NCBI GenBank assembly: GCA_029860345.1
Contig: JAOUBJ010000008.1
Location: 124,001 to 188,000 of the forward strand
DNA from: Candidatus Zixiibacteriota bacterium
Lineage (GTDB): Bacteria; Zixibacteria; MSB-5A5; GN15; FEB-12
Direction of reading: 5' to 3'
DNA: 64,000 nucleotides
Positions 4,227 to 55,014 of this stretch are shown one piece after another. The position numbers were made by a program, and so were the translations under genes. The notes below the pieces were generated by a model. The model was not told the origin of the DNA and ran no database searches. It saw only the letters and a program-made list of their open reading frames with translations. Positions within the stretch are counted from its first letter, which is position 1; each line of letters starts with the position of its first letter.

Positions 4227-6815
4227 ATGAAACGCATCATGAGATCGTGTGTACTCGCTGCATCGTGTCTGGTTGTCGCCGGTGTGCTAGCTACCGGCCT
4301 CACGTCGGTGAATGCGAACGAGGTGAAGACAAACGGGCGAAGTATCGAGGAATTCGTAAACCCGGACGGTAGTTTCGATCTGGAGGATGCGCGACTTTCC
4401 GGCTTTGAAGGACCGCTGGACATGAAGGGGTTTGAATCGGCTATAGATTCGATCACCGGGCAACCGATGTTCAAGCCATCCGGAACCAGAGAAACCGACG
4501 ACCACCCGGAAGACATCTACTGGGACAACAGTATCTCACCGACCCTCGCCGGTGTAGATGACATCATCTATACGGCGACAGTCTACGATGGACGGCTTGT
4601 TGTCGCCGGTCGATTCTATCTGGCGGGCGACGTGATCTTGGATCACATAGCTGCGTGGGATGGCAGCAGTTGGTCTGACCTGGGAGCCCAGATGAATTCT
4701 CGGGTCGAGGCTTTGACCGTTTACGATGGGAAGCTGATTGCCGGAGGCTCTTTCACAAGAGCTGGCGGTGTCGAGGCAAGCTGCATAGCAGCCTGGGATG
4801 GGAGTACTTGGTCTTCCCTGGGTCAAGGATTAGGTGGTTGGGTCAGCGCTTTGACCGTGTACGACGGTGAATTGATAGCGGGAGGATGGTTCATTTCGGC
4901 TGGAGGCTCACCAGTAAACAGGATAGCTGCCTGGGATGGGAGTAGTTGGTCACCACTGGGATCGGGTTTGGAGGGCGATGGAATCGCATACGGGTTTTCT
5001 CTGACCGTCTTCGACGGAAATCTGATTGCGGGTGGGGGCTTCACTACGGCAGGAGGAGTGGCGGCAAACAACATAGCCTCCTGGGATGGCGCCAATTGGT
5101 CGCCACTGGGATCAGGGACGGATCATCTTGTTTACTCGCTGGGTTCTTACGATGGAAAACTGATAGCTGGAGGCAAATTCCTAACGGCAGGCGGCGTGGA
5201 GGCGACATTCATTGCCTCTTGGGACAGTACCGAGTGGTCACCACTTGGATCCGGGATGAACAAGAGTTCCGTTTTTTCTCTATTTGAGTACAATGGGAAG
5301 TTAGTAGCAGCAGGGAATTTCACTACAGCCGGTGGAGTGGAAGCGAGCAAGATAGCCTCCTGGGATGGGATCAATTGGACACCCTTTTCTTCGGGGATGA
5401 ACCACATTGTCTATGCCCTTACCCAGTACGAGGGAAATCTGATAGCCGTGGGTGAGTTCACATCGGCCGGAGGAGCCGGGGCATCCAGGGTGGCCTCCTG
5501 GAATGGAAACAGTTGGTCGGCGCTGGGGTCGGGAATAAGTGGTGCGATAAATGCCCTGGCTGTATACGATGGCAAAGTTATTGCGGGGGGCGAGTTCCGG
5601 GCGGCCTTCGGTGTACCGATGAACTTTCTCGCAGCCTGGGATGGAACCAGTTGGGCCTCACTCGGATCGGGAATGGACGGGACTGTCTTTGCCGTGACCT
5701 TGTACGCCGGGAAATTGATAGCCGGGGGTTCATTCACAACGGCCGGAGGTGTGACAGCAAACTCTATTGCCTCCTGGGATGGCAGCAGTTGGTCGCCCCT
5801 GGGATCGGGGATGGCGGGAGAGTACCCCGATGCCCGTGCCCTGGCTGTCTACGACGGGAAACTGATAGCAGGAGGTCGGTTCGACACAGCCGGCGGCGTG
5901 GAAGTGAACCATATAGCCTCTTGGGATGGGATCTCTTGGTTGCCGTTGGATTCGGGGATGAATGGTTCTGTCCGTTCGCTGGCCGCTTACGACGGGGAGC
6001 TGATAGCTGGAGGGTTTTTCGACACGGCAGGAGGAGTGGAAGCACAATACATTGCCTCATGGAATGGCAGCAACTGGTCGTCCGATCTGTCGCAGATGAA
6101 CGGATGGGTCTTTGCCCTAAACGTGTACGATGGGACACTGATTGCGGGCGGATCGTTCACGACGGCCGGAAGTGTGACAGGAACCAGTTTGGCCGCCTGG
6201 GACGGAAGCGGTTGGTCTTCTCTTGGGTTGGGGGTCTCAGGAAGAGTCCTCTCTCTGACAATACATGAAGGGAACCTGATATCGGGAGGACGACACACGC
6301 ACGCCGACGGCGCTGAGGTGAGCAAGATAGCATCCTGGAATGGCCACAGTTGGTCACCACTGGCATCGGGAATGAACACTGAGGTTCGCGCCCTATCCAC
6401 ACATGACGGTAAACTGTTTGCAGGAGGTACATTCACGTTCGCGGGAAACAAGGTCTCGGCCTATATGGCGGAGTGGACCTCCCCCCCGGATGCTGACAAC
6501 GATGGCACATCCGACGGCAACGACAACTGTCCGACCGACTACAACCCCGGGCAGGAAGATGCCGATGCAGACGGCGTCGGCGACATATGCGAAGCGACCT
6601 GCTGCACGCTAAGAGGTGACATCAACCGCGACTTCGCAGGTCCCGACATATCGGACCTGGTGTATTTGGTAGACTTCATGTTTAACGGCGGACCGGAACC
6701 GCCCTGTGAGCAGGAGGCAAACATTGACGCCGGCGGCGGGATCGACATTTCCGATCTCGTTTACATAGTTGACTACATGTTCAATGGCGGACCGCTACCG
6801 CCGGCGTGTCCTTAG
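4227..6815 (+). CDS. Secreted 14-repeat beta-propeller-like protein with dockerin
   Basis: 862 residues, start fixed by AAGGAGGA before the ATG. A signal peptide (about 1-31, cut near VNANE) is followed by a linker and then 14 repeats of about 46 residues (about 112-755). Each repeat carries the pattern YDGKLIAGGSFTTAGG, then IASWDGSSWSPLGSGM, resembling Kelch/delta-60-type propeller blades. Fourteen blades would make two seven-bladed propellers. Next come one thrombospondin type 3-like calcium repeat (DADNDGTSDGNDNCP) and a C-terminal dockerin-like module with two [17 protein letters not shown] repeats bracketed by CC and a final C. Likely surface-exposed or bound through the dockerin. The ligand is unknown. 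Confidence 0.85.
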   Translation: MKRIMRSCVLAASCLVVAGVLATGLTSVNANEVKTNGRSIEEFVNPDGSFDLEDARLSGFEGPLDMKGFESAIDSITGQPMFKPSGTRETDDHPEDIYWDNSISPTLAGVDDIIYTATVYDGRLVVAGRFYLAGDVILDHIAAWDGSSWSDLGAQMNSRVEALTVYDGKLIAGGSFTRAGGVEASCIAAWDGSTWSSLGQGLGGWVSALTVYDGELIAGGWFISAGGSPVNRIAAWDGSSWSPLGSGLEGDGIAYGFSLTVFDGNLIAGGGFTTAGGVAANNIASWDGANWSPLGSGTDHLVYSLGSYDGKLIAGGKFLTAGGVEATFIASWDSTEWSPLGSGMNKSSVFSLFEYNGKLVAAGNFTTAGGVEASKIASWDGINWTPFSSGMNHIVYALTQYEGNLIAVGEFTSAGGAGASRVASWNGNSWSALGSGISGAINALAVYDGKVIAGGEFRAAFGVPMNFLAAWDGTSWASLGSGMDGTVFAVTLYAGKLIAGGSFTTAGGVTANSIASWDGSSWSPLGSGMAGEYPDARALAVYDGKLIAGGRFDTAGGVEVNHIASWDGISWLPLDSGMNGSVRSLAAYDGELIAGGFFDTAGGVEAQYIASWNGSNWSSDLSQMNGWVFALNVYDGTLIAGGSFTTAGSVTGTSLAAWDGSGWSSLGLGVSGRVLSLTIHEGNLISGGRHTHADGAEVSKIASWNGHSWSPLASGMNTEVRALSTHDGKLFAGGTFTFAGNKVSAYMAEWTSPPDADNDGTSDGNDNCPTDYNPGQEDADADGVGDICEATCCTLRGDINRDFAGPDISDLVYLVDFMFNGGPEPPCEQEANIDAGGGIDISDLVYIVDYMFNGGPLPPACP

Positions 6816-7052
6816 ACCTCAATAGGGAGTATTGAAAAGGTCCCGGTTGGCGTCATTGCGAGGACGCCGAAGGCGGACGCGGCAATCTCATGCCTCGACT
6901 CCGCTCGGCATGACACGTGTGCCGCGAACTAAGATTGCCGCCTTCGCGGGTGTGACATGTGTGACGCGGGCATGAAAACTGAACGCGTTTTATAGCCCTA
7001 AGTGCGCTGAGCGCAGTCCAGACTCGTGCTGCCAAAAGCAGCCAAAAACAGT
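6816..7052. repeat. Intergenic dispersed palindromes
   Basis: No gene seen. It contains degenerate copies of the CTCGACTCCGCTCGGCATGAC-type repeat (near 6894 and 7008) and GCCGCCTTCGCGGGTGTGAC-type hairpins (near 6930) that recur in other gaps. These are genome-scattered repeats, not coding DNA. Confidence 0.6.
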
Positions 7053-7113
7053 TTGGAACAAGGACACTCCAATCGTATATTATGGATGCGTCAAGCGACC
7101 CGTCCAGACGGGT
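7053..7113 (+). promoter_or_regulatory. Promoter and 5' UTR hairpin of the Asp-box gene
   Basis: TTGGAA (7053-7058) and TATATT (7076-7081) have a 17-base spacer. ACCCGTC-CA-GACGGGT (7098-7113) is a perfect 7-pair hairpin about 17 bases downstream. This is the same layout as upstream of the gene at 4227, so the two are probably co-regulated or share a leader function. Confidence 0.7.
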
Positions 7114-7148
7114 TCTATCAGCAACGAAGACTGACTTCCGGAGGAATT

Positions 7149-9392
7149 ATGAGACACATCAATGTGACATTGGACGTCCTCGGCGTTTCCAGAAGCGGCA
7201 AAGGCAGCATTGTGATGTGGGCAGTGGTACTGCTGGCATTATTCACTCTCACGGATCGAGCCGACGCCCGGGTCTGGGAACATACAAGCGGACCGCTGGG
7301 GGGGGGAGTCGATTTCCTTGCCAGCGACTCAAGCGGTTACATGTTTACCAGCGGCTATGTCGGCAAGTGCTTTCGTTCTGCCGACGATGGAGATAACTGG
7401 ACGCAGCTCAGCGTTGACTGGAATGCCGGTGTGAGTGCGTTCGCAGTCAACGCCACCGGTGACATTTTTGTTGGTACCGATGGTGACGGCATTTATCGCT
7501 CCACTGACAACGGCGACAACTGGACGCAGCTCAACCTTGGCATGACGGTTTTATCCGCAAAGGATTTGGCCATCAGCCCCACCGGTGACATTTTCGCCGG
7601 GATTTGGTATCACGGCATTTATCGATCGTCCGACAACGGCGACACCTGGACGCTGGTCAATGGTAGTGTGCCGGTTACTTCTGTCTATTCTCTCGCCGTC
7701 AACTCAAGCGGTGACATATTTGCCGGTACTCGTAATGACGGTGTTTATCGTTCTACCGACAATGGCGACAACTGGACACAGATCGTCACTGGTTTGTCGT
7801 CAGCCCTGAGAATCTACTCTCTCGCCGTAAACTCCGGCGATGCCATTTTTGCCGGAACTGCAACCTACGGTGTGTATCGTTCTACTGACAACGGCGATAA
7901 TTGGTCGCAGATCAACAGCGGCATGGGCAATGGTACGGTCTCTGAAATAGCCATTGGCTCCACCGACGACATGTTTATCACTAACTCATTTACGGGTGTT
8001 TATCGTTCGACTGATAATGGAGATACCTGGACACAGGTCAACAGTGGATTATCGACGACAGCTGTCCAGGCCCTGGCCTTCGGGTCCAGCGGTAACATAT
8101 TTGTAGGCACAAAGGGCAGTGGTGTTTTTCGGTCGGGTGACAGTGGTGCCAACTGGGTCGAGATCAACAATGGCCTGACAGCTACCAGACCCTCGGCCCT
8201 CGCATTTAACGCAGGCGGCGACATTTTTGCCGGTACAATCGGCGATTTCTTTCGTTCGACCGACAACGGTGACACCTGGACTCAGATCAGTTTAAGTACG
8301 GGCTATACTTCGGTCCAGGCAGCCGCCGTCAACTCCGGAGGTGACATATTTGCAGGCGTCAGTTCTGGTGGTGTCTATCGTTCCACAGACAACGGCGACA
8401 ACTGGGCACAGACAACCAATGGACTGGGGAGCCCCACGGTCGGTGCTTTCGCCATAAGCACAGGTGGTGAGGTTTTTGCCGGTACTTTAGGTTCAGGTGT
8501 CTTTCGTTCAAATGACAATGGCGACAACTGGATACCGATCAACGATGGGATGATCAACCTGTATGTCAACGCTCTGGCTATCAACTCAGGCGGTGACATC
8601 TTTGCCGGGACGCGGGCCGGCAGTGTTCACCGTTCTACCAACAATGGCGATAACTGGACGCAGATCGAGCTGAGTCCGACGGTTTTTAGTGTCAGATCAC
8701 TGGCCATCAACTCGGCCGGTGACATTTTTGCCGGCACTAGTGCAGACGGCCTTTATCGTTCTACTGACAACGGCGATACCTGGACACAAATCTACAATTA
8801 TGCAAGTCTACCTTCGATCCGGGCAATCGTAGTCAATACCAGCGATGATCTGTTTATCACGAATTCTTTTGACGGCGTTCTACGTTCTACGGACAATGGA
8901 GATACCTGGATGGCGCTCAATTATGGCCTTCCCGGTTTAGAACTCCATGCTCTCGCCATCAGTTTCACCGACGACATAGTTGCCGGTATCTGGGGTGAGG
9001 GCGTTTACCGCTTGACTGAGTGCCCGGACGTTGATGCCGACTGGGTCTGTGATGCCTTTGACAACTGCCTCAATACGGCCAACGGCCCGCAAACAGATAA
9101 TGACCAGGACGGCCTTGGGGATGCCTGCGAATGTTGCTGTTCTCTGCGCGGGGATGTGGATCAATCCGGCACCTTGCCTGCACCCGACATTGCTGATCTG
9201 ACCTTCCTGGTAGACTTCATGTTCGCGGGCGGGCTTGCTCCGTCTTGTATGGGCAACGCTGATGTCGATGGTGATGCCGAGTGCCAGCCTACGTGCGGCG
9301 ACAGTCCTGATATCAGTGACCTGGTGTATCTTGTGGACTACATGTTCCAGGGTGGTCCGGCACCATTAGTTTGTCCGAGCGGCTGCAAGTAA
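7149..9392 (+). CDS. Secreted Asp-box (BNR) propeller protein with dockerin
   Basis: 747 residues. The frame runs further upstream, but those codons overlap the promoter; the ATG at 7149 has GGAGGA at good spacing and begins a long signal peptide (cut near ADARVWE). Thirteen clear Asp-box motifs (YRSTDNGDNWTQ) plus one degenerate copy repeat every 42-44 residues, again 14 blades, as in sialidase or Vps10-type propellers. No catalytic sialidase residues were identified, so binding or structure is more likely than glycosidase activity. A TSP3-like stretch (DNDQDGLGDACE) follows. The dockerin-like C-terminus is richer in cysteines than the others and ends VCPSGCK. Confidence 0.85.
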   Translation: MRHINVTLDVLGVSRSGKGSIVMWAVVLLALFTLTDRADARVWEHTSGPLGGGVDFLASDSSGYMFTSGYVGKCFRSADDGDNWTQLSVDWNAGVSAFAVNATGDIFVGTDGDGIYRSTDNGDNWTQLNLGMTVLSAKDLAISPTGDIFAGIWYHGIYRSSDNGDTWTLVNGSVPVTSVYSLAVNSSGDIFAGTRNDGVYRSTDNGDNWTQIVTGLSSALRIYSLAVNSGDAIFAGTATYGVYRSTDNGDNWSQINSGMGNGTVSEIAIGSTDDMFITNSFTGVYRSTDNGDTWTQVNSGLSTTAVQALAFGSSGNIFVGTKGSGVFRSGDSGANWVEINNGLTATRPSALAFNAGGDIFAGTIGDFFRSTDNGDTWTQISLSTGYTSVQAAAVNSGGDIFAGVSSGGVYRSTDNGDNWAQTTNGLGSPTVGAFAISTGGEVFAGTLGSGVFRSNDNGDNWIPINDGMINLYVNALAINSGGDIFAGTRAGSVHRSTNNGDNWTQIELSPTVFSVRSLAINSAGDIFAGTSADGLYRSTDNGDTWTQIYNYASLPSIRAIVVNTSDDLFITNSFDGVLRSTDNGDTWMALNYGLPGLELHALAISFTDDIVAGIWGEGVYRLTECPDVDADWVCDAFDNCLNTANGPQTDNDQDGLGDACECCCSLRGDVDQSGTLPAPDIADLTFLVDFMFAGGLAPSCMGNADVDGDAECQPTCGDSPDISDLVYLVDYMFQGGPAPLVCPSGCK

Positions 9393-30022: not shown

Positions 30023-30156
30023 GATTTCGATATTGTCTGTTCCAACGATTTATCTGCCCGGATTCGCGCCAGTTGCTACCAAAGCAACCGCGGGTTGACC
30101 GGTGGCATTTGCAGGTCCAACGTATTGTGTGCTCTGTTTCGAGCAGGAGAACTAGG

Positions 30157-30804
30157 ATGAGATCAAAGGTACTGAGACTAAGCCTCGCGATCGTATTGTT
30201 TCTTGCGTTTTCAACGACTGTGTTGGCGGCTAAAGATGAAAGAGACGCCCGGCCAGTCAAAAAGACTGATACCACCAAACAACCGACCAAACCAGCCACC
30301 AAACAGGCTCCGAAGGAACAGGATTCACCCAAAACTGTACCGACCATCCAGGAAACGACGCAACCGGTGACGATCACGCCTGGTACCGCCGACCCCCGCG
30401 CTGGTGAAGAGATCAACTGGCAGGTGCTGGCTGCAGGCGGCAACCTCAGCACCATGGGCACGATGATGCTTGGCTCCACAGTGGGCCAAACGGTGGCCGG
30501 ACAGTCGACGATGGGTAGCTTGACTCTGAACTCCGGTTTTCAGCAAAACTTCGAAAGCGGTGGCTCGGGTACCTGCTGTATTCCGCCGATGCGGGGTGAT
30601 GTCAACTACGACGCGAATGAACTGATCGATATCTCAGACCTGCTCTACCTGATCGATTTCATGTTCACCGGCGGGCTGGCTCCGGTCTGTCACGAAGAGG
30701 CGGATATCAACGGCGACGGCGCGGAACTTCTGGACATCAGTGATCTGGTCCACCTGATCGATTACATGTTTACCGGCGGCGCACCGCCGGCAGACTGCCC
30801 GTAG
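30157..30804 (+). CDS. Small secreted dockerin protein
   Basis: 215 residues from the ATG at 30157 (AGGAG at 7 bases; an upstream frame extension lies in the leader). A signal peptide (cut near VLAAKDERD) precedes a Lys/Thr/Pro-rich linker. Next is a short domain beginning EINWQVLAAGG with MGTMMLGSTVGQT and NSGFQQNF, then the dockerin-like module opening TCCIPPMRGDVNYD and ending DCP. The gene at 41001 encodes a paralogue with the same middle domain (QITWQMVSNGG, GFWQE). The middle domain is unrecognised. A perfect terminator follows. Confidence 0.82.
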   Translation: MRSKVLRLSLAIVLFLAFSTTVLAAKDERDARPVKKTDTTKQPTKPATKQAPKEQDSPKTVPTIQETTQPVTITPGTADPRAGEEINWQVLAAGGNLSTMGTMMLGSTVGQTVAGQSTMGSLTLNSGFQQNFESGGSGTCCIPPMRGDVNYDANELIDISDLLYLIDFMFTGGLAPVCHEEADINGDGAELLDISDLVHLIDYMFTGGAPPADCP

Positions 30805-31098: not shown

Positions 31099-33825
31099 AT
31101 GCAAAGTGCTAACTGTTTCTTCACTCGTAATGGTTTGTCAATGCTCCTGCTCGTAAGTGTGGCCGTTGGCATCCTTGGCCTGGCTACTCCGGCCAACGCT
31201 CAGTTGTTTGGAGACGGCTCCAACGGGAGCTTCAACCCCGGCGCCGGGACCTACCATGTACCGTCTGACCGGAATTACGTCAACCTGACTATCAACGCCG
31301 GAGCGGTTTTTGAAACCCACGGCTACAACATCCGTGTTTCCGGGACTTTGATAAACAACGGGACTATTACCGACTCCTACTCGGGCGGCACAGGCGGCTC
31401 TGGTGGTCCTGGTGGCGCCGGTGGCACAGGTCACGGTCCGCACATTCCCCCTCAAACAGGCTCGCCCGGAGTCTCAGGTTCTTCCGGCACAGTCAGCGGG
31501 GCTGGTTTCGGAGGGGCCGGTGGTGGCGGTGGCGGCGGCGGCGGCGGCGCCTGGGATGGTCTTTATAATGAGTATGCCCGAGGCGGGCATGGCGGTACAG
31601 GGGGCAAGGGCGGCAGGGGCGGCGGAGTCGTGAGGATTTACGCCAAGACCCTCGACAATAACAACCTCATTAGCGCTAAAGGACTTAATGGTCTGCAGGG
31701 CTTGAACGGACAGGGTGGATTCTATCGATCCTGGTCTGTCTTATTCGTAAACTATGATTTGGCCGGCGGCGGCGGCGGCGGCGGTCGAGGCGGCAGGGGC
31801 GGCAACGGCGGCCGAATTGAACTCTATTACGGGACGCTTCTGACCAGTGGATCGGTCACTGCCGCCGGCGGCAACGGCGGATCCGGAGGTATCGGTGGCG
31901 GCGGAGTGAATACCAACTACAGTTCCCTTGGCAGTTCTTCTGAAGAAAGCGGAGCCAGCGGCTCAGGCGGTGCCGGTACCGGTGGCCGAGGGGAGATTAG
32001 TAGCGTCGGTAGTAATTCTGGCAGTGGTTCATCGACGAATTCATCGGGGCCCAATGGCACAGTAAGCTGGATCCCCACAACGGTCTGTTATGTCGACGCT
32101 GACGCTGATGGCTACGGCGATGCCAGCGATCCAGGCACGGATGTAATCGGCGGCTGTGGCGCCGGATTCTCAACAAACAACAACGACTGTGACGACTCAG
32201 ACCCCAACACCCATCCCGGCGCCACAGAGATCTGCGACGGACAGGATAACGACTGTGACGGTAACGTACCGGCGAACGAGCAGGATCTCGACGGTGACGG
32301 TTGGTCATCTTGCGCGGGTGACTGCAACGACGGAAATGTCAATGTATTTCCGGGAGCAACTGAGATTCTCTGCAACGGCGTCGACGAAAACTGTAATGGA
32401 TTAGCCGATGACGACATCAACGCCGATGGCGACCCGGTATCGTTCTGTAACGGGGACTGTGATGACAGTAATCCAAATCGCTATCCCGGCAATACAGAGA
32501 TTCAGTGTAACGGCATAGATGAAAACTGCAATGGAAATGGCGACGATGATGCCGATGCCGACGGCGACGGTTGGTCGGTCTGCGCCGGTGACTGTAATGA
32601 TCTTAACGCAGGAATACATCCTGGACACGCGGAAGTGCTGTGCAACGGTATCGACGACGACTGCAATCCGGGCACGCTCGATAATCCCGATGCCGACGGC
32701 GACGGAATCTCTATTTGCGCAGGCGACTGCGACGACAACGACCCCAACGTCTTCCCCGGCAATACAGAAATCCAGTGTAACGGGATAGACGACAACTGCA
32801 ACGGAATGGGCGATGACGATCCCGACCTCGACGGTGACGGTTGGTCCGTTTGCTCCGGTGACTGTGACGACACCGATCCCGCCGTCAACCCCGGCCAATC
32901 CGAAGTATTGTGCGACGGCATCGACAATGACTGTGTAGCCGGCACTCTCGACGATCAGGATGCCGACGGCGACGGTGTATCTGTCTGCGCCGGTGATTGT
33001 GACGACAACGACCCTGCCAGATTCCCCGGAAATGTGGAGATTCTTTGTAACGGCATAGATGATGACTGTGATGCGGTCACACTCGACGACATTGACGCCG
33101 ACTCTGACGGTGTCTCACTGTGTGCCGGTGATTGTGACGACAACGATCCGACTGTTTTCCCCGGCAATGTTGAACTACCGTGTAACGGAATAGATGACGA
33201 CTGCGACCCCGGTACGTTCGATGACGCTGACAACGATCTGGATGGAGTCTCGTTCTGCGCCGGCGACTGTGATGACAACGACCCGAATATATTCCCCGGC
33301 AATGTTGAAACAACGTGTGACGGCGTGGACAACGACTGTGATCCAGGTACGCTCGATGATCCCGATCTCGACGGCGATGGAGTCACACTGTGTGCCGGTG
33401 ACTGTGATGACACCGACGCGAGTATATTCCCCGGTAATGTTGAGACTACCTGTAACGGTATCGACGACGACTGCGATCCGGGAACGCTCGATGATCCCGA
33501 TGTTGATGGCGATGGAGTCACACTGTGTGCCGGTGACAACTGCCCTAACGATCCGAATCCGGGCCAGGGGGACTTGGACTTCGACGGTATCGGCGATGTA
33601 TGTGACCCGATATGTTGTTTCAGTCGTGGTGACATTGATCACAGCGGTCCACCTCTGGACATTGCCGACCTCGTCTACCTGGTAGACTATATGTTCAACG
33701 GTGGTCCCGCACCGCCGTGCATCGATGAAGCAGACTTTGGTCCGCCGGCCGGAATCGACATTGCTGATCTGGTGTATCTTGTGGACTTCATGTTTAACGG
33801 CGGCCCGGCACCACCGGGCTGTTGA
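31099..33825 (+). CDS. Secreted Gly-rich protein with MopE-type metal-binding repeats and dockerin
   Basis: 908 residues, GAGGT before the ATG. A signal peptide (cut near ANAQLF) is followed by a beta-rich domain (about 35-95) and a glycine-rich region (about 95-330) with runs of Gly interrupted by AWDG and VVRIYAK segments. Ten full 45-residue repeats follow, pattern DADGDGVSVCAGDCDDNDP then FPGNxEIxCNGIDDDC. These match the putative metal-binding motif named after the copper protein MopE and would bind calcium or copper. A partial TSP3 unit and the C-terminal dockerin-like module (CCFSRGDIDHS to PAPPGC) end it. The repeats are similar at DNA level (135-bp period), so copy number could vary between strains. 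Confidence 0.87.
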   Translation: MQSANCFFTRNGLSMLLLVSVAVGILGLATPANAQLFGDGSNGSFNPGAGTYHVPSDRNYVNLTINAGAVFETHGYNIRVSGTLINNGTITDSYSGGTGGSGGPGGAGGTGHGPHIPPQTGSPGVSGSSGTVSGAGFGGAGGGGGGGGGGAWDGLYNEYARGGHGGTGGKGGRGGGVVRIYAKTLDNNNLISAKGLNGLQGLNGQGGFYRSWSVLFVNYDLAGGGGGGGRGGRGGNGGRIELYYGTLLTSGSVTAAGGNGGSGGIGGGGVNTNYSSLGSSSEESGASGSGGAGTGGRGEISSVGSNSGSGSSTNSSGPNGTVSWIPTTVCYVDADADGYGDASDPGTDVIGGCGAGFSTNNNDCDDSDPNTHPGATEICDGQDNDCDGNVPANEQDLDGDGWSSCAGDCNDGNVNVFPGATEILCNGVDENCNGLADDDINADGDPVSFCNGDCDDSNPNRYPGNTEIQCNGIDENCNGNGDDDADADGDGWSVCAGDCNDLNAGIHPGHAEVLCNGIDDDCNPGTLDNPDADGDGISICAGDCDDNDPNVFPGNTEIQCNGIDDNCNGMGDDDPDLDGDGWSVCSGDCDDTDPAVNPGQSEVLCDGIDNDCVAGTLDDQDADGDGVSVCAGDCDDNDPARFPGNVEILCNGIDDDCDAVTLDDIDADSDGVSLCAGDCDDNDPTVFPGNVELPCNGIDDDCDPGTFDDADNDLDGVSFCAGDCDDNDPNIFPGNVETTCDGVDNDCDPGTLDDPDLDGDGVTLCAGDCDDTDASIFPGNVETTCNGIDDDCDPGTLDDPDVDGDGVTLCAGDNCPNDPNPGQGDLDFDGIGDVCDPICCFSRGDIDHSGPPLDIADLVYLVDYMFNGGPAPPCIDEADFGPPAGIDIADLVYLVDFMFNGGPAPPGC

Positions 33826-35220: not shown

Positions 35221-37332
35221 ATGTCAAAGCGTACCAACCTCACTTGGGCCCAATCCCCGATGGATCTGTCGCGTTCATGTATCTTAATAGTCCTGTGCAT
35301 CCTGATGGTGTCATTCGTCGTCGGCGGCGCCCGGGCCAAGACAGTTGTCCGCATCAACAATCTCCCCTATGTCCAACCGGGCGACACTGTATCTATCGCG
35401 GTCAGCCTGGATAGCGTAACGGCAGGTCTGGACATGGCCGGATTCGACTTTATGATCAGTTGGGACAGGAGGGCTCTTCGGTTTATTGCCGCTCAACCCG
35501 GCCAGTTGCTTATTGACTGCGGCTGGGAGTATTTCAACTCCAGAGCGGACTCTTTGGACTGGGACGGATATCCGGCCACCATTCCGGTGGTCCGGGTCGT
35601 GAGTCTGGCCGATATGGCCAACGGGGACAATCACCCCACGTGCAACGCAACATCTCCGGGGGAGTTGGCAATACTAACCTTCGAAGCGAGCAACCACCCC
35701 AACAATCTTAGCCGCACATTCGGGCTTCATTTTGTGTGGGCCGATTGCGGCGACAACAGTATGGCCACAGTCGAAGGCAGCTTCTATATATCCGACGCAG
35801 TTTTCGAGAACGGCTCGGACTGGGCTATGGATACCTGGTTGCCCACCTTACGCGGCGCACCCGACGAATGCTCGGGCCCTGGTGCGGTTCGCGAGATCGA
35901 CTTTTACAACGGTCTGATCACGATGGCCCCCTCGGATTATGTGGGCGGGTCCGCCGTGTCGATCATTGGTGAGCCCTACACCTGGTTGGGATGGCCGGCC
36001 TCCGCGCAAATCGTCATCCAGAACCACAGGGCGCCGTGGTCCTCCTCCGGATTCGATCTGCTCGTTCGATATGATGCCGATGGCTTGAGGCTCCACTCTG
36101 TTCAGCAGGGCAGCGATCTCTTAGCCTGGGCTTGGGAGTACTTCCAATACGCATCCGATTCAACAGAGGGGCTGGTCCGCTTGGTTGCCATTGGGGATAT
36201 CAACAACGGAGACGTCCATCCGTCGAATCTGATTGACCAAGAGTGTGAACTGGCAACGCTCAACTTCATGGTAAGAAATGATCTGGCCAATATCGGACGG
36301 AAACTATCGCTAAGTTTTCAATGGATTGACTGCGGCGACAACACTTTTGCCAGTGCCCCCAGTGGTGACTCGCTCTATATCTCCGGCGATGTCTATGATG
36401 AATACGGCTTTCTGATAACTACTGATGACCCCTTCCCAACAACTCAGGGCGCGCCGAGCGAGTGCCTGACCGCCACGACCGTGCGTCGGTCGGTCGATTA
36501 CTACCAGGGCTTCATCCAAGTCGCTAATTCGAATCCGTCGGATGATACTGATCGTGGTGATGTCAATCTCAACGCCGTGCCTTATGAGGTTGCTGATTGG
36601 GTTCTGTTCACGAATTACTTCTTCTACGGCCTGAGTGTTTTCAACGTCAATATTGAAGCCCAGATCGCCAGTACTGATGTCAATAACGACGGGCTCATAC
36701 TGACGTTGGCCGATCTGATGTATTTTTATCGCATTGTAGTAGGTGATACTGAGCCGATCTGGAAAACCGGCGCCGTTGACGACACTGTTATAATCATCCA
36801 GGACACGATCGCCCACACGCTGTCTGTCACCTACCCTGACAGCCTGGCCATGCTGTACCTCACTTTCGACGGCACTATGGATTCACTACACTTCGAATCC
36901 GAGACGCATAGCGCCGGATACAATCACGATGGATATGCCACACGAGTGCTTGTCAGACCATCGCTAAACTACGGTGGCGGCGTTCCGGTACTACCGAGCG
37001 GCTTCCTAATGGACTACATTGGTGATGCCATGGCAGTCAGCGCGCATGCCGAGTATGACGGCGTTAATCCGATCCCTGCCATTGTTGTGATCGGCGACGG
37101 CGCACCCTGCTGCGTAATCCGTGGTAACATCAACCACGATCCGACCGGAGTGCTGGACATAGCAGATCTGGTCTACCTGGTGACATACATGTTCGACCTG
37201 GGACCGGCGCCGCCATGCCCCGGTGAGGCCGACGTGAATTCCGACGGCACTGGTGACATCGACATCGCAGACTTGATCTACCTGGTGGACTATATGTTCA
37301 ACGGCGGCCCGCCGCCGGTGCCGTGTCCGTAG
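35221..37332 (+). CDS. Secreted protein with two cohesin-like and two dockerin-like modules (candidate scaffoldin)
   Basis: 703 residues from the ATG at 35221, preceded by GGAGGAAAA. A signal peptide ends near GGARAK. Residues about 41-190 and 250-390 are two related beta-sandwich modules. Their features (PGDTVSIAVSLDSV, GFDFMISWDRRALRFI, ELAILTFEA and, in the second, GFDLLVRYDADGLRLHSV) resemble cohesins and related carbohydrate-binding sandwiches. Residues about 444-510 form an internal dockerin-like pair (RGDVNLNAVPYEVADWVLF and STDVNNDGLILTLADLM). After a further domain, residues 629-703 are the common C-terminal dockerin. If real, it could hold the other dockerin proteins. A perfect terminator follows. 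The cohesin call is inference from pattern only. Confidence 0.75.
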   Translation: MSKRTNLTWAQSPMDLSRSCILIVLCILMVSFVVGGARAKTVVRINNLPYVQPGDTVSIAVSLDSVTAGLDMAGFDFMISWDRRALRFIAAQPGQLLIDCGWEYFNSRADSLDWDGYPATIPVVRVVSLADMANGDNHPTCNATSPGELAILTFEASNHPNNLSRTFGLHFVWADCGDNSMATVEGSFYISDAVFENGSDWAMDTWLPTLRGAPDECSGPGAVREIDFYNGLITMAPSDYVGGSAVSIIGEPYTWLGWPASAQIVIQNHRAPWSSSGFDLLVRYDADGLRLHSVQQGSDLLAWAWEYFQYASDSTEGLVRLVAIGDINNGDVHPSNLIDQECELATLNFMVRNDLANIGRKLSLSFQWIDCGDNTFASAPSGDSLYISGDVYDEYGFLITTDDPFPTTQGAPSECLTATTVRRSVDYYQGFIQVANSNPSDDTDRGDVNLNAVPYEVADWVLFTNYFFYGLSVFNVNIEAQIASTDVNNDGLILTLADLMYFYRIVVGDTEPIWKTGAVDDTVIIIQDTIAHTLSVTYPDSLAMLYLTFDGTMDSLHFESETHSAGYNHDGYATRVLVRPSLNYGGGVPVLPSGFLMDYIGDAMAVSAHAEYDGVNPIPAIVVIGDGAPCCVIRGNINHDPTGVLDIADLVYLVTYMFDLGPAPPCPGEADVNSDGTGDIDIADLIYLVDYMFNGGPPPVPCP

Positions 37333-37625: not shown

Positions 37626-40600
37626 ATGAAACGCATCACTCAAATGCAGGCGATGGTGGTAGTCATGGTGACGGTCCTGGCTTTGGTGGCTATGGCCGAC
37701 GTGCCGCAGATGATGAACTACCAAGGGAGACTGACCGATCAGTCCGGTGAGCCCCGTGACACTGTCGTGTCGGTTTCATTTGCGGTTTACCGCGATGCCA
37801 CTGGCGGTGAGGCAGTATGGAGTGAAACTCACCCCGATGTAATCGTAGTAGCCGGTCGGTTAAATGTTCGTTTGGGCTCTGTTGATCCGATCAGCGATGC
37901 CGTATTTGACGGAAGCGAGCGCTGGCTAGGGATCACGATCGGTGACGACGCGGAGACTTCACCTCGGACTCGTCTTACCTCGGCCGGCTACTCGCACCGA
38001 GTGAGTACGGTCGACGGAGCAACGGCGGGGAATCTTGTCGGAGATCTAAACGTCTCAGGCGCTATAACCAGTGGACAGCCGCCGGACCCGGGGATGGAAG
38101 CGGCATCCAATCAGATCTTTATCAACGGATCGGACGGTGTCATAATCTCCAGAGAGGGGCAGGTTTACCTGGGGAGAGGTCAGCCGTCCGACAGCCCCGA
38201 TTACCCCGACTTTTCCGATATCCAGGTCGGTGTCGGCACTCGAACGCCACAGCATACTCTGGACGTAGCCGGCGACATTCATGCCAGTGGAACCCTGGCG
38301 ATCGGCAACTCGATTTACCACGACGGCGTACTGAACCAGGTGCGAACCTCAGGCCCCACCTTGTCGCTGGGACGTGAGCCGAGTTACGGCACCTTTGATG
38401 ATATCAAGGTCGGCATTGGAACCGCGACGCCTGGTTCCAAACTTGATGTAGCCGGAACTGCTCGCATGACCGGCTTCCAACTGACCACTGGCGGGACCAA
38501 TGGATTTGTGCTTACTTCAGACGGCAGCGGCGTCGGCACTTGGCAGCCCACACCCGACTTTACGCCCCCGCCCAGTGACGGCGACTGGGAGCTCGGTCAT
38601 CCTAATCCCGATGTGCTGTTCACAATGGGAGATTGGGGCGTTGCGCGGCAGGGTGCGACATTGCACGGAGTGGCTGCAAACACGCACATCAACTTGGGTG
38701 GCTCCAGCGTCACCGGCACAGCCGGCAACGATCATCCCTTTGCCACGGTTAGCGGCGGTTTCGAGCACATAGCCGGCGGCCCATACAGTAGCATTGGGGG
38801 CGGATATCGGAATAGAGCTTGGGAGGAATACGCAGTCGTGGCCGGAGGATATCGCAACCGGGCCAAGGGCAGATTCTCGTCCGTTCTCGGAGGCGACGAC
38901 AACATTGCTGAACACGAGATGACGGTGATCGGCGGCGGTGCTCACAATCGCGCCGTGGGCTCGTACTCGGTCGTAACCGGTGGCTATCACTGTCACGCGT
39001 ATGATGACATGGACGTAGTGGGTGGCGGCCGGTACAATATCGCCGGGATGGACGACGGCGTCAATCAGGAGGCCCACTATGCCACCGTAGCCGGGGGCGG
39101 CCAGAACAATGCATGGAAGAAAGGTACGTTTATCGGCGGTGGTTACAATAATCATGCCGACGGCCAGTTCGCCAGTATCGTCGGCGGCACCTACAACCGG
39201 GTATACGCCGTCTTAGGCTCTATCGGCGGCGGCGGCAGCACTGTGTCAGGTGACGCGAGCACAGCCAACCTTGTTTATGACCGTTGGGGTACTATCGGCG
39301 GCGGCGGCGACAACCTGGCCGGCAACGATGACGGCGATATGCTCAGCGCCGAATTCGCCACCGTGGGCGGCGGTCAGGGCAACGAAGCCACAGGAAGTCA
39401 TACTACAGTTGGTGGTGGTTATCTCAATACGGCGACGGATTCCTGGTCTACCATCGGCGGCGGATACCAGAACTCCGTGGATGGACGGCAGGCAACAATC
39501 TCGGGAGGTAGAGGAAATGTAATACGGGCAGAAGGCACGTCCTACAGTTTTTCATCAGTCATTGGGGGAGGTTGGTTCAATGATCTCCATGGCAAGTATT
39601 CAACGATCGGAGGCGGTAGACAACATGTGATAAAGGGCTTTTACAGTACCATTGCGGGTGGTGGTGCCTGCTCTACTTTAGCGAGTGGTGCGACCATCTC
39701 GGGCGGTGGCTGGGATTTCACCCTGGTCGCTGGGGACGGGAACCCTTTACCTGAGGCGTATGAGACCGGTCATGTTGTCTATGATCATTATGGTACCATC
39801 GGCGGCGGCATGACCAACAGGGTTGGTACCGTTGGATCAGATGTCGAAGATGCACAGTGGGCTACCATTAGCGGCGGTGCGAACAATACTGCCAGCGCGG
39901 CTCATGCCACAATCGGCGGCGGCCATGACAACTATGCCTCCGGCGAGTTCAGCACCATCGGCGGGGGCAAATCCTGCGCTGCAAAGGACTATTACGCCGT
40001 TGTCGGCGGCGGAAACGGGAACATCGCCTCGGCTGGACATGCCACCGTTGGCGGAGGCTTTGACAACAAGGCAACGGCCAACTTATCCACGGTGGGTGGC
40101 GGACGAAGCAATCTGGCCAGCGGCCCCCAATCGACGGTTGGCGGCGGGTATGGCGACACGGCCACAGGAGACTTCTCCACCATCGCAGGTGGTTACTGGA
40201 ACAAGGCGTACGGCAGCATAAGCACGGTAGGCGGCGGCGCCTGGGATACTGCGTCCGGGGATTTTTCAACGGTGCCCGGAGGATGGGGCAACATAGCTGA
40301 GGGCGACTATTCGCTGGCGGCCGGTCGGAGAGCGCGCGCCGAACACCTGGGGACATTCGTCTGGGGTGATGCTACCGATGCGGTGTTCAATTCTACCGAT
40401 GTCAATCAGTTTCTCATCCGCGCCGATGGTGGCGTCGGTATTAACGTGGACGATCCATCAGAGGATCTCGATGTGTTAGGAACCGCTAAGTTGAGAAACA
40501 TGCCGGCTGACCCTGGGGGCACGTACTCTGTCATGGTCGACGCTACCGGAGTATTGTACAAGGGTGCATCAAGCAAAAGGTATAAGGAAGACATCAAACC

Positions 40601-40979
40601 GCTAAAGACTGACTCGCGCCAGACTCTCCTGTTGGAGCCGGTCAGATTCCGGTGGAAAGATTCTGGTAACGAAGACGTTGGGTTGATCGCTGAGGATGTG
40701 GCTAACGTGATTCCGGAACTGGCTGTATACGATAGCAACGGCAGACCTGACGGTGTTCGGTACGACAAAGTAGCCCTCTATCTTCTGGGTACGGTGAAGG
40801 ATCAAAGCCGCTTAATTGAGGAACAGAAGACTGAACTGAGCCTGTTGCGACAGCAAAACAGTTCCGAGATTCAAACCTTGAAAGAGGAAATGGCCCAGCT
40901 GCAGGAGCTCTTTGAAACTGTCCTGGCTCAACAGAACGATACCAAGGTCAACGGTACAAGTCTCGCGGCCAAGAATTGA
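37626..40979 (+). CDS. Giant surface adhesin with YadA-like head repeats and S74 self-cleaving chaperone domain
   Basis: 1117 residues. A signal peptide (cut near AMADVPQ) and an N-terminal domain (MMNYQGRLTDQSGEP, SFAVYRD) are followed by a linker and about 40 short repeats of 14-16 residues (about 360-910), such as ATVGGGQGNEATGSHT and TVGGGYLNTATDSWS. These are the left-handed roll of trimeric YadA-type heads. The C-terminus (about 980-1117) is a peptidase S74/endosialidase chaperone domain, SSKRYKEDIKPL, with Ser982 and Lys987 as the likely catalytic pair, then a coiled coil. S74 domains trimerise the fibre and cut themselves off. No outer-membrane anchor is seen. The gene is 21 bases before a dockerin gene. 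Confidence 0.85.
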   Translation: MKRITQMQAMVVVMVTVLALVAMADVPQMMNYQGRLTDQSGEPRDTVVSVSFAVYRDATGGEAVWSETHPDVIVVAGRLNVRLGSVDPISDAVFDGSERWLGITIGDDAETSPRTRLTSAGYSHRVSTVDGATAGNLVGDLNVSGAITSGQPPDPGMEAASNQIFINGSDGVIISREGQVYLGRGQPSDSPDYPDFSDIQVGVGTRTPQHTLDVAGDIHASGTLAIGNSIYHDGVLNQVRTSGPTLSLGREPSYGTFDDIKVGIGTATPGSKLDVAGTARMTGFQLTTGGTNGFVLTSDGSGVGTWQPTPDFTPPPSDGDWELGHPNPDVLFTMGDWGVARQGATLHGVAANTHINLGGSSVTGTAGNDHPFATVSGGFEHIAGGPYSSIGGGYRNRAWEEYAVVAGGYRNRAKGRFSSVLGGDDNIAEHEMTVIGGGAHNRAVGSYSVVTGGYHCHAYDDMDVVGGGRYNIAGMDDGVNQEAHYATVAGGGQNNAWKKGTFIGGGYNNHADGQFASIVGGTYNRVYAVLGSIGGGGSTVSGDASTANLVYDRWGTIGGGGDNLAGNDDGDMLSAEFATVGGGQGNEATGSHTTVGGGYLNTATDSWSTIGGGYQNSVDGRQATISGGRGNVIRAEGTSYSFSSVIGGGWFNDLHGKYSTIGGGRQHVIKGFYSTIAGGGACSTLASGATISGGGWDFTLVAGDGNPLPEAYETGHVVYDHYGTIGGGMTNRVGTVGSDVEDAQWATISGGANNTASAAHATIGGGHDNYASGEFSTIGGGKSCAAKDYYAVVGGGNGNIASAGHATVGGGFDNKATANLSTVGGGRSNLASGPQSTVGGGYGDTATGDFSTIAGGYWNKAYGSISTVGGGAWDTASGDFSTVPGGWGNIAEGDYSLAAGRRARAEHLGTFVWGDATDAVFNSTDVNQFLIRADGGVGINVDDPSEDLDVLGTAKLRNMPADPGGTYSVMVDATGVLYKGASSKRYKEDIKPLKTDSRQTLLLEPVRFRWKDSGNEDVGLIAEDVANVIPELAVYDSNGRPDGVRYDKVALYLLGTVKDQSRLIEEQKTELSLLRQQNSSEIQTLKEEMAQLQELFETVLAQQNDTKVNGTSLAAKN

Positions 40980-41000: not shown

Positions 41001-41558
41001 ATGAAACGCTCACAATATACAATGGTTACGGCGATGCTGATGACGACGCTGCTGGTCGGTTCCGCGTTCGGCGATGGCCGCAAGATCGACGCACCGGCGA
41101 AAACCAGCCAAACAGTCGATCAGCAGCTAAGTCTCCAACTGCGGAGTGCCGTGACCACGACCAGTTCCGGTCAGCAGATCACCTGGCAAATGGTCTCTAA
41201 TGGCGGGACCGACGGTTCCTCGCCCAATCACGTACTGGTCGGCACGGTCAGCCAGACTGCTACCGGCTACGGCGAATCCGAGAGTTTCGGCCTCAGCCAT
41301 GGTTTTTGGCAGGAATCAGGCGGCGGTGGCACATGCTGCCTGCCAACCATCCGGGGCAACGTCGATTACGACATCAGCGACAATACTGATATTTCCGATC
41401 TGGTCTACATGGTCGACTACATGTTTACCGGCGGACCGGCACCCCCTTGTTTCGAGGAAGCCGATATGGACGCCAGTATGACCATCGACATCTCTGATTT
41501 GGTTTATCTGGTCGACTATATGTTTACCGGTGGACCGGCGCCGTTGGCGTGTCCGTAA
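41001..41558 (+). CDS. Small secreted dockerin protein, paralogue of the 30157 gene
   Basis: 185 residues. A signal peptide (cut near AFGDGRK) is followed by a Gln/Thr/Ser-rich stretch and the same short domain as in the gene at 30157 (GQQITWQMVSNGG, LVGTVSQTATGYGESESFG, HGFWQE). The dockerin-like module opens TCCLPTIRGNVDYD and ends LACP. It starts 21 bases after the S74 adhesin and lacks a promoter of its own, so the two are probably co-expressed. The middle domain is unrecognised. Confidence 0.82.
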   Translation: MKRSQYTMVTAMLMTTLLVGSAFGDGRKIDAPAKTSQTVDQQLSLQLRSAVTTTSSGQQITWQMVSNGGTDGSSPNHVLVGTVSQTATGYGESESFGLSHGFWQESGGGGTCCLPTIRGNVDYDISDNTDISDLVYMVDYMFTGGPAPPCFEEADMDASMTIDISDLVYLVDYMFTGGPAPLACP

Positions 41559-51936: not shown

Positions 51937-54900
51937 ATGAGAAGAAAGTCAGTTCTGTCTTTTGTTCTGCTGGTGTTGCTGTTTTCGACGGCGGCCGGCT
52001 ACGACTTCAATGGAGAGAGATATCTGAAGATATCGATCCGCGATAGAGCAGACCTGCCGAAGCTCTCCGGCCTGTTGTCGATCGACGACGTTCAGGGCGA
52101 GACCGTTTTTGCCTATACGCACGAGAGCAAACTGAACGAGTTGTCAACCCTGGGCTTCACTTACGAAGTCTTGCCTCATCCATCAAGTCTGGTGGATCCA
52201 GCCATGTCATCGGACAAGGTCGACGTAAAAGTTTGGGATGTGTATCCGACCTACGATGCCTATGTGGCCATGATGTACCAGTTCGCAGCCGACTTCCCGG
52301 CGCTGTGCCGAATCGAAAACGTCGGTACCACTGTTAACGGACGAGCATTACTCTTCGCTGTAATCTCGGACAATGTCGGAACTGAAGAGGACGAACCGGA
52401 AGTTATGTACACCAGTTCCATCCACGGTGACGAAACGACCGGTTCGGTGTTGATGCTGCGGCTGATCGACTCTTTGCTCACCACCTACGGCTCGGATGCC
52501 AGGATTACCAACATGGTGGACGAGATGGAGATTTGGATCAACCCTTTCGCCAACCCGGACGGCACCTACGCAGGCGGCAATCACACTGTTTCGGGTGCGA
52601 CACGTTCTAACGCCAACGGCTACGATCTGAACCGCAACTTTCCCGATCCGGAAGACGGCCCCACACCCGGCGGCACCCGGCAGATCGAAACCACGCACAT
52701 GATGAACCTGGCCGATGCGCACAACTTTGTACTCTCGATGAATTTCCACGGTGGCACCGAAGTTCAGAACTATCCCTGGGACACCTGGGTGCAACGTCAT
52801 GCCGACGAAGACTGGTGGCAACGTGTCTGCCACGCCTACGCCGACACGGCGCAGCAATACAGCCCAGGCGGCTACATGACCGGTTACAATGACGGCATTA
52901 CAAATGGATATGACTGGTACACGATCTCCGGCGGCCGTCAGGATTACATGACCTACTTTCAGCACGGCCGCGAAGTCACCAACGAAATCTCCGACACCAA
53001 ACTCCTCCCAGCCAGCCAGCTTCCGGCCTGGTGGGGCTACAATCGGCTGGCCCTACTTCAGTGGCTGGAGAACGCCTTGTACGGCGTTCGGGGAATAGTA
53101 ACCAATGTCAACAACGGACTTCCGGTGGTAGCGATGATCGAAGTGTTGAGTCATGACGTAGACTCCAGCCAGGTGTACACCGATCCGGATGTCGGCAATT
53201 ATCATCGAATGTTGGCCGCGGGCAGTTGGGACCTCAGGTTCACGGCGCTGGGATATATACCACAGACGATTTACGGCGTGTCGGTAACCGATTTCAACAC
53301 GACCGTTCTGGACGTACAGATGGAACCATTGTCCGACGATCCGGTGGTGGAATTCGGCAGTCACGACGCAGGTAGTCTGGACCCGGGCGATTTCGCCAGT
53401 ATGTTCGTCACGCTGGTCAACAACGGCGGCGGTGATGCAACCAATCTGTCGGGAACGCTGACTTGTGCCGACAGCTTCATAACGATCAGTCAGGACTATT
53501 CCACCTACCCGACCATTACTGCTCTGGGCGGTAGTTCTGCTTCCAACAGCGCCTACCAGTTCAACATTTCCGCCGCTTGTCCGGAAGAACATCCGGTCGA
53601 CTTCGTGATGCATCTGGCTGGTGACGCTTACACAGACAGCGTTGTGTTCGGCATGACTATAGGTTTGAAGGTTGAGGATTTCGAGTCGGCTGACTTCTCG
53701 ACCTATCCCTGGCAGATGTCCGGCAGTCAATCGTGGGTGATCAACGGTACCGCGTATGAAGGCAACTACTCGGCCAAGTCGGGCAGTATCTCTCACAACC
53801 AGTCGAGCACTATGTCGGTCTCTTTGAACGGCCTGACGGCCGGGACCATCAGTTTCTACTACAAAGTATCTTCCGAGGCCAACTATGACTACTTGAGGTT
53901 CTATATCGACGGCGCTCAGAAAGCTCAGTGGGCAGGGGACGTCAACTGGACACTGGCCGAGTTTGCGGTCACCGATGGTGATCACACTTTCCGCTGGACT
54001 TACTCAAAAGATGGCAATACTACCAACGGCAGCGACTGCGGTTGGGTCGATTATATTATCTTCCCGGCTTCCAGCTCCGACCGTGACGGCGATGGTGTGC
54101 TCAACGCCAACGACAACTGCCCCGACACCCCCAATCCACTTCAGGAAGACGGAGATGTCGATGGTGTCGGCGACGTGTGTGACAACTGCGAGTTTGTTGC
54201 TAACTCGTTACAAGAAGATGACGACACCGACGGCATCGGTAACGTTTGCGATAATTGTCCCACGGTGTCCAACGCATCCCAGAGCGACGGCGACGGCGAT
54301 GACTATGGCGATGTCTGTGATAATTGCGCGGAGGTTGCCAACCCGTTGCAAACCGACAGTGATTCCGATAACGTGGGCGACGTTTGCGACAATTGCGTGA
54401 CTGTCGACAATACGTCACAGACTGACTTCGATAGCGATGGCGTCGGCGACGCCTGCGATAACTGTTTCAATGTCGTTAACCCGGCACAGGAAGATAGCGA
54501 TGCCGACGGGAAGGGTAATCTCTGCGACAATTGTGAAGGGGTGGCCAATCCTGGGCAGGACGATACCGACTTTGACGGCATCGGTGACAGTTGCGACAAC
54601 TGCATCGCGCGACACAACCCGTCACAAATCGACACTGACGCCGATGGACTGGGCAATGGCTGCGATAATTGTCTCGACGATGCCAACCCGTTGCAAGAGG
54701 ACCTGGACTCAGATGGCGTTGGTGACAGTTGCGACAATTGCCTTACAATCTACAACCCGCTTCAGGAAGACGCTGACTCCAACGGGGTCGGTGACGCCTG
54801 CAATTATGTGTGCGGCGATATCGATAACTCAGGCGAGGGTCCCGATATCAGTGATCTGATATACTTGGTTGATTGGATGTTCACCGGTGGTCCACCGCCT

Positions 54901-55014
54901 GTCGAGTGGGGCTCAGCCGATGTCGATGGCTCCGGTGGTACCGCTGACATAGCTGATCTGGTCTATCTTGTGGACTTCATGTTCAACGACGGGCCTGCGC
55001 CGGTCTGTTACTGA
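51937..55014 (+). CDS. Secreted M14 zinc carboxypeptidase with TSP3 repeats and dockerin
   Basis: 1025 residues. A signal peptide (cut near AAGYDF) and pro-region precede an M14 domain (about 95-390). Zinc ligands are in [10 protein letters not shown] (HxxE) and SMNFHGG. The substrate Asn-Arg motif is YDLNRNFPD, and the catalytic Glu lies in [10 protein letters not shown] regulatory-like domain ([16 protein letters not shown]), a CARDB-like stretch and a jelly-roll-like domain (about 580-710) follow. About nine TSP3 calcium repeats ([12 protein letters not shown]) and the dockerin-like end ([10 protein letters not shown] to APVCY) complete it. It digests peptides outside the cell. This dockerin has one cysteine fewer at the front and lacks the middle one. 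Confidence 0.92.

Follow-up and report, generated by a model that had tools for sequence, protein, structure and literature searches.

A cellulosomal scaffoldin carries several enzyme-integrating cohesins, usually together with a carbohydrate-binding module. Large dockerin repertoires were described for cellulosome producers, with 222 dockerins in R. flavefaciens FD-1 (PMC2930009) and more than 200 in B. cellulosolvens (PMC5590126). Moreover, protein-degrading cohesin-dockerin complexes were proposed from genomes for freshwater Planctomycetes (Nemodlikiaceae), where the complex is called the "planctosome" (PMC6461901), and for Ca. Stygibacter of the Cloacimonadota (PMC8542988), and many cohesin-dockerin proteins were found in ANME archaea (PMC9012536). 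Given these three precedents, the general idea of a non-cellulosomal cohesin-dockerin complex, which a first-pass annotation of the DNA studied here had put forward as new for such a lineage, is not novel.

The window of this study (the whole stretch of 64,000 nucleotides that was analysed) contains an open reading frame at 35221-37332 (+ strand) that encodes a polypeptide of 703 amino acid residues. Its features are as follows.

35221..35337, + strand: putative signal peptide, residues 1-39, ending in VSFVVGGARA; read off the translation.
35338..35946, + strand: cohesin-family module 1 (COH1), residues ~40-242; 220 bits with the profile of the window cohesin type.
35947..36543, + strand: cohesin-family module 2 (COH2), residues ~243-441; 228 bits with the same profile.
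36550..36765, + strand: internal dockerin-like module (docI), residues ~444-515; profile match to a PDB dockerin.
36766..37104, + strand: X region, residues ~516-628; a putative small beta-sandwich, judged from sequence only.
37108..37329, + strand: C-terminal dockerin (DOC), residues 630-703; profile E 3.5e-35, AF2 model and Foldseek.

The assignment of COH1 and COH2 to the cohesin family is supported by several searches. The whole protein scored 30.9 bits against Pfam Cohesin (PF00963; cut-off of 24.1) over two stretches, and COH1 alone, in which the Pfam Cohesin stretch spanned residues 52-97, scored 21.4 bits, slightly under the cut-off. When the single protein was compared with all PDB sequences by phmmer, two cohesins of C. 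thermocellum CipA were matched at E ~0.002. A profile built from 40 homologous modules matched 23 PDB chains, every one of them a cohesin (best E 2.3e-5), and the alignments mostly covered the N-terminal half. The cohesin identity that the first-pass annotation had proposed from pattern alone is supported by matches exclusively to PDB cohesins and to no other sandwich family. Individually, 23 of the 40 members of the profile also matched Pfam Cohesin. The window cohesin family is divergent, and W, C, N and C positions were invariant in the 40-module alignment. Different from cellulosomal cohesins, its members possess ~50 extra residues with invariant cysteines ahead of the last strand, as found by manual comparison. 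In addition, 34 of the 40 modules have D at the position aligned with Asp39 of CipA cohesin-2, which we take to be a dockerin-contact residue; in the 35221-37332 protein this position is residue ~77. The AF2 model of COH2-docI-X (pLDDT 35.5) came from an alignment of only four rows, which was too shallow for a fold.

No dockerin follows COH1, the next module being COH2, and COH2 is directly adjoined by docI. The top PDB match of the docI profile was the dockerin 3ul4_B (E 5.6e-5), which supports docI as a dockerin, and the D/N positions of its putative calcium ligands were invariant. The first-pass annotation correctly listed two cohesins and DOC and overlooked this second dockerin at residues 444-515. 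For DOC, the AF2 model had a pLDDT of 93.5 and a pTM of 0.80. The PDB entries ranked 1-31 by Foldseek were all dockerin chains, with probabilities of 0.85 to 1.00 and E-values no better than 0.006, which is usual for a module of 75 residues, and the top 20 PDB matches of the DOC profile were also dockerins. The modelled fold of DOC is that of a dockerin, i.e., a duplicated loop-helix. No match to Dockerin_1 (PF00404) was found in the 703-residue protein at E up to 1, and one sister dockerin protein matched Dockerin_1 weakly, under the cut-off. The calcium ligands of DOC are mostly present; the loop length varies and some copies are without ligands. The helix motif DI[AS]DLVYLVD[YF]MF is common to both halves of DOC in nearly all of 55 sequences, suggesting one shared class of partner and dual binding. 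The cysteines C2 and C73/C74, near the ends of DOC, were invariant in the alignments made, which suggests a disulfide that clasps both ends. Similarly, an intramolecular clasp reportedly exists in the dockerin of R. flavefaciens ScaA.

The DOC profile matched exactly seven places in the window (C8:130600, 133135, 154574, 157613, 161108, 165334, and 178808 in genome coordinates), all in the seven proteins that had been said to end in one dockerin module. In addition to the protein encoded by 35221-37332, they are as follows.

4227..6815, + strand: DUF5122/Rax2 beta-propeller protein with DOC at its end (Pfam and DOC profile).
7026..9392, + strand: Sortilin/BNR-propeller protein with DOC at its end (Pfam and DOC profile).
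30073..30804, + strand: small protein with DOC at its end (DOC profile).
31099..33825, + strand: MopE-type metal-binding-motif repeat protein with DOC at its end (Pfam and DOC profile).
41001..41558, + strand: small protein with DOC at its end (DOC profile).
51937..55014, + strand: M14 zinc carboxypeptidase with thrombospondin type 3 repeats and DOC at its end (Pfam and DOC profile).

For two of these genes the frames given earlier were right, and the starts at 7149 and 30157 fall inside longer open frames. As was also claimed, the 35221-37332 protein is the only one in the window with two tandem cohesin modules; the other window proteins are without cohesin. Its downstream neighbour (37626-40979, + strand) encodes a fibre-like protein of 1117 amino acid residues with many GGG-x-N repeats. 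This protein has an S74 (endosialidase chaperone) domain at its C-terminus, weakly resembles the N-terminus of a Bdellovibrio mosaic adhesive trimer, and is probably a trimeric adhesin.

The source genome (4.76 Mb, 99% complete) contains at least 150 DOC-type dockerins, a floor, as 150 of 252 candidates were scored, all with E < 1e-21. The Pfam model Dockerin_1 matched 27 places in this genome. Because Pfam finds 27 of at least 150 dockerins, systems of this kind are under-counted. The dockerin genes are dispersed across nearly all large contigs, and there are 18 window-type cohesin modules in the genome, so that neither module is special to the window. At C10:75742-81763, about eight small dockerin-ended genes lie close together on one strand, possibly as an expanded array of paralogues. 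The proteases among the sampled dockerin-tagged proteins were of the M6, M12B, C25, and S8 families, with a weak M23 match and the M14 enzyme of the window, and the sample was also rich in propeller, PKD, and thrombospondin type 3 domains. No glycoside hydrolase, including those of the plant-cell-wall type that are dockerin-tagged in cellulosomes, was found in the six other window dockerin proteins and 30 sampled elsewhere.

Window-type cohesins were found in ~15-16 other proteins of the genome, most of which have type IX tails. A second cohesin type (B-type), also cohesin by profile, accounts for nine modules, five of which are in tandem in one protein of 2073 amino acid residues with a type IX tail. 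As a candidate scaffoldin, this five-cohesin protein is preferable to the 35221-37332 protein. The locus C2:191100-211883 (L096, L097) encodes a series of giant proteins with type IX tails, in which the five tandem B-type cohesins as well as dockerin-cohesin pairs are found, and is a candidate for the true scaffoldin locus; loci of this type were detected within the genus and, sporadically, elsewhere in the order. A role of the five-cohesin B-type protein as a general receptor was rejected, as B-type cohesins occur in only 13 of 61 genomes. A further protein, of 238 residues, consists of a single cohesin and a C-terminal dockerin.

The best explanation of these results, to which we give about an even chance, is that the 35221-37332 protein is exported and acts as an adaptor-type subunit within a large, non-cellulosomal network of cohesins and dockerins. 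The label of scaffoldin is plausible for a protein with these modules; given its own C-terminal dockerin, however, an adaptor role fits better. The network reading of the first-pass annotation is retained. That the network is built on this protein is unsupported, given the ~16 other cohesin proteins and the five-cohesin type IX protein. If it is an adaptor, its DOC would plug into a cohesin of a protein that the type IX secretion system keeps at the surface. COH1, which is unpaired, would be free at least to take a dockerin-tagged partner, such as a protease or a propeller protein, and COH2 may be engaged by its own docI. Calcium would steady the dockerins. The outcome would be a surface complex that grasps and digests protein-rich material.

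Proteins that carry the window-type cohesin fall into two main classes. In the first, a long N-terminal part is followed by cohesin-docI-X and then a type IX tail. The second has the order cohesin(1-3)-docI-X-DOC without a type IX tail; it includes the 35221-37332 protein and is represented throughout the order, in a dozen genomes or more. Full-length orthologues with 57-58% identity were found in three congeners. Among them, DOC was the most conserved module (72-75%) and X the least (39-43%), with identities of 60-73% for docI and 53-61% for the cohesins. The window-type cohesin was identified in 60 of the 61 genomes, its own included, at 2 to 22 copies, and dockerins in all 61, at 19 to at least 95 matches, in which the internal type was partly counted. 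Across the 61 genomes, the correlation between cohesin and dockerin counts disappeared when genome size was controlled for (partial rho 0.16, p 0.23); the dockerin counts in it are lower bounds, and it is not used as evidence. No further relatives were found in viral contigs.

In every docI protein examined, docI directly adjoins a cohesin with a gap of 0-9 residues, as judged from profile boundaries, and most single-cohesin proteins have the arrangement COH-docI-X. The cohesin in nearly every single-cohesin protein is fused to its own dockerin and may be occupied by it, which counts against the network reading. This arrangement, together with the invariance of the putative calcium ligands of docI, is what would be expected if COH2 and docI bound each other within the chain as a rigid, wall-like structural unit, leaving only COH1 and DOC, or DOC alone, to act between proteins. 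The same sequence pattern, however, would be expected from head-to-tail binding between chains, and tandem cohesins without a dockerin between them exist, including COH1 of this protein. We therefore regard a lock within the chain as rather unlikely, at about one chance in four.

The SprA translocon is encoded in the genome, in which TIGR04183 also marks 68 type IX tails. DOC lay no more than 9 residues from the stop codon in 36 of 40 sampled proteins, which were counted as C-terminal, and when contig, position, and frame length were compared, only 5 of the 150 dockerin matches were in the same frame as a type IX tail. The 35221-37332 protein itself lacks the type IX C-terminal sorting domain (TIGR04183/PF18962) and has the dockerin at its end. 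Tentatively, and with somewhat less than one chance in three, the C-terminal dockerin may be an address tag used genome-wide in this Gram-negative order, parallel to the type IX tail and almost exclusive of it. The tagged proteins would then be retained at the surface on cohesins of type IX proteins, and the cohesin(1-3)-docI-X-DOC adaptors would extend the lattice.

The near-exclusion of the two tails and the C-terminal position of DOC would also be seen if DOC were mainly a sorting or surface-retention tag that is used instead of the type IX tail and is read by a receptor other than the window-type cohesin, with the cohesin-like modules as inert sandwich spacers. In line with this, the relative G035 (97% complete) has 31 dockerin matches and one weak Pfam cohesin, and no window-type cohesin was found in it. 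Thus, these dockerins do not always depend on that cohesin. G035 is a real exception that counts against the network reading and a natural test case for other dockerin partners. The Foldseek matches of the AF2 model, however, show DOC to have a true dockerin fold, and each of the 61 genomes examined has Pfam cohesins. To our knowledge, cohesins are the sole partner class of dockerins, which also counts against such a tag. We judge it improbable, at roughly one chance in five.

A cellulosome-like role of the 35221-37332 protein, as the primary scaffoldin on which the proteins of the window cluster are assembled, is suggested by its two tandem cohesins near six other dockerin proteins. Such a role is very improbable, as the protein has two cohesins only and its own C-terminal dockerin, a Pfam search found no carbohydrate-binding module in it, dockerin genes lie over nearly all large contigs rather than being clustered in the window, and a five-cohesin protein is encoded elsewhere in the genome.

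The adaptor reading can be compared with the known systems. The gene content fits a planctosome-type set, with a putative adaptor that has a dockerin and cohesins and with dockerin-tagged peptidases. As proposed for the planctosome, the set would comprise an anchor that bears a cohesin, an adaptor in which both module types are combined, M12B and M14 peptidases tagged with dockerins, and thrombospondin type 3 repeats (PMC6461901). Different from it, dockerins number at least 150 in the genome here, which also has type IX tails and fusions of a cohesin with its own dockerin, whereas the planctosome is small, hypothetical and anchored by a lamin-tail domain. Similar to Ca. Stygibacter, C-terminal dockerins are found on S8 and C25 peptidases, and a tandem-cohesin candidate scaffoldin with a C-terminal surface-attachment domain is present (PMC8542988). 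However, the scaffoldin of Ca. Stygibacter has carbohydrate-binding domains and its enzymes include GH18 and GH57, none of which appeared in the sample here, and the COH-docI tandem is not described there (PMC8542988). The ANME proteins are also non-cellulosomal and combine a dockerin with several cohesins in one protein; different from the system here, they are archaeal, and their cargo includes transporter binding proteins (PMC9012536). The module families are the same as those of the adaptor and anchoring scaffoldins and type I dockerins in the cellulosomes of C. thermocellum, R. flavefaciens, and B. cellulosolvens, and the dockerin number is comparable to that of the richest cellulosome producers. 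In contrast to cellulosomes, cellulase-type cargo is absent from the sample, the modules are divergent, and the setting is Gram-negative with type IX secretion. The gene content suggests large cellulosome-like assemblies without cellulose enzymes.

What appears to be new is the scale of the system, its linkage to type IX secretion, in which two C-terminal tags almost exclude each other, and the fusion of a cohesin with its own dockerin across the order. This combination was not found described in the literature searched, outside of which most subscription journals lay, and a search for Zixibacteria together with dockerin found no paper. Should the modules bind, this uncultured order would possess a cohesin-dockerin system that equals the biggest cellulosomes in size, directed at protein and linked to type IX secretion. 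They would also be a source of new orthogonal cohesin-dockerin pairs, among them a disulfide-rich cohesin that comes already fused to a dockerin, and the cellulosome principle would be a general means of building bacterial surfaces.
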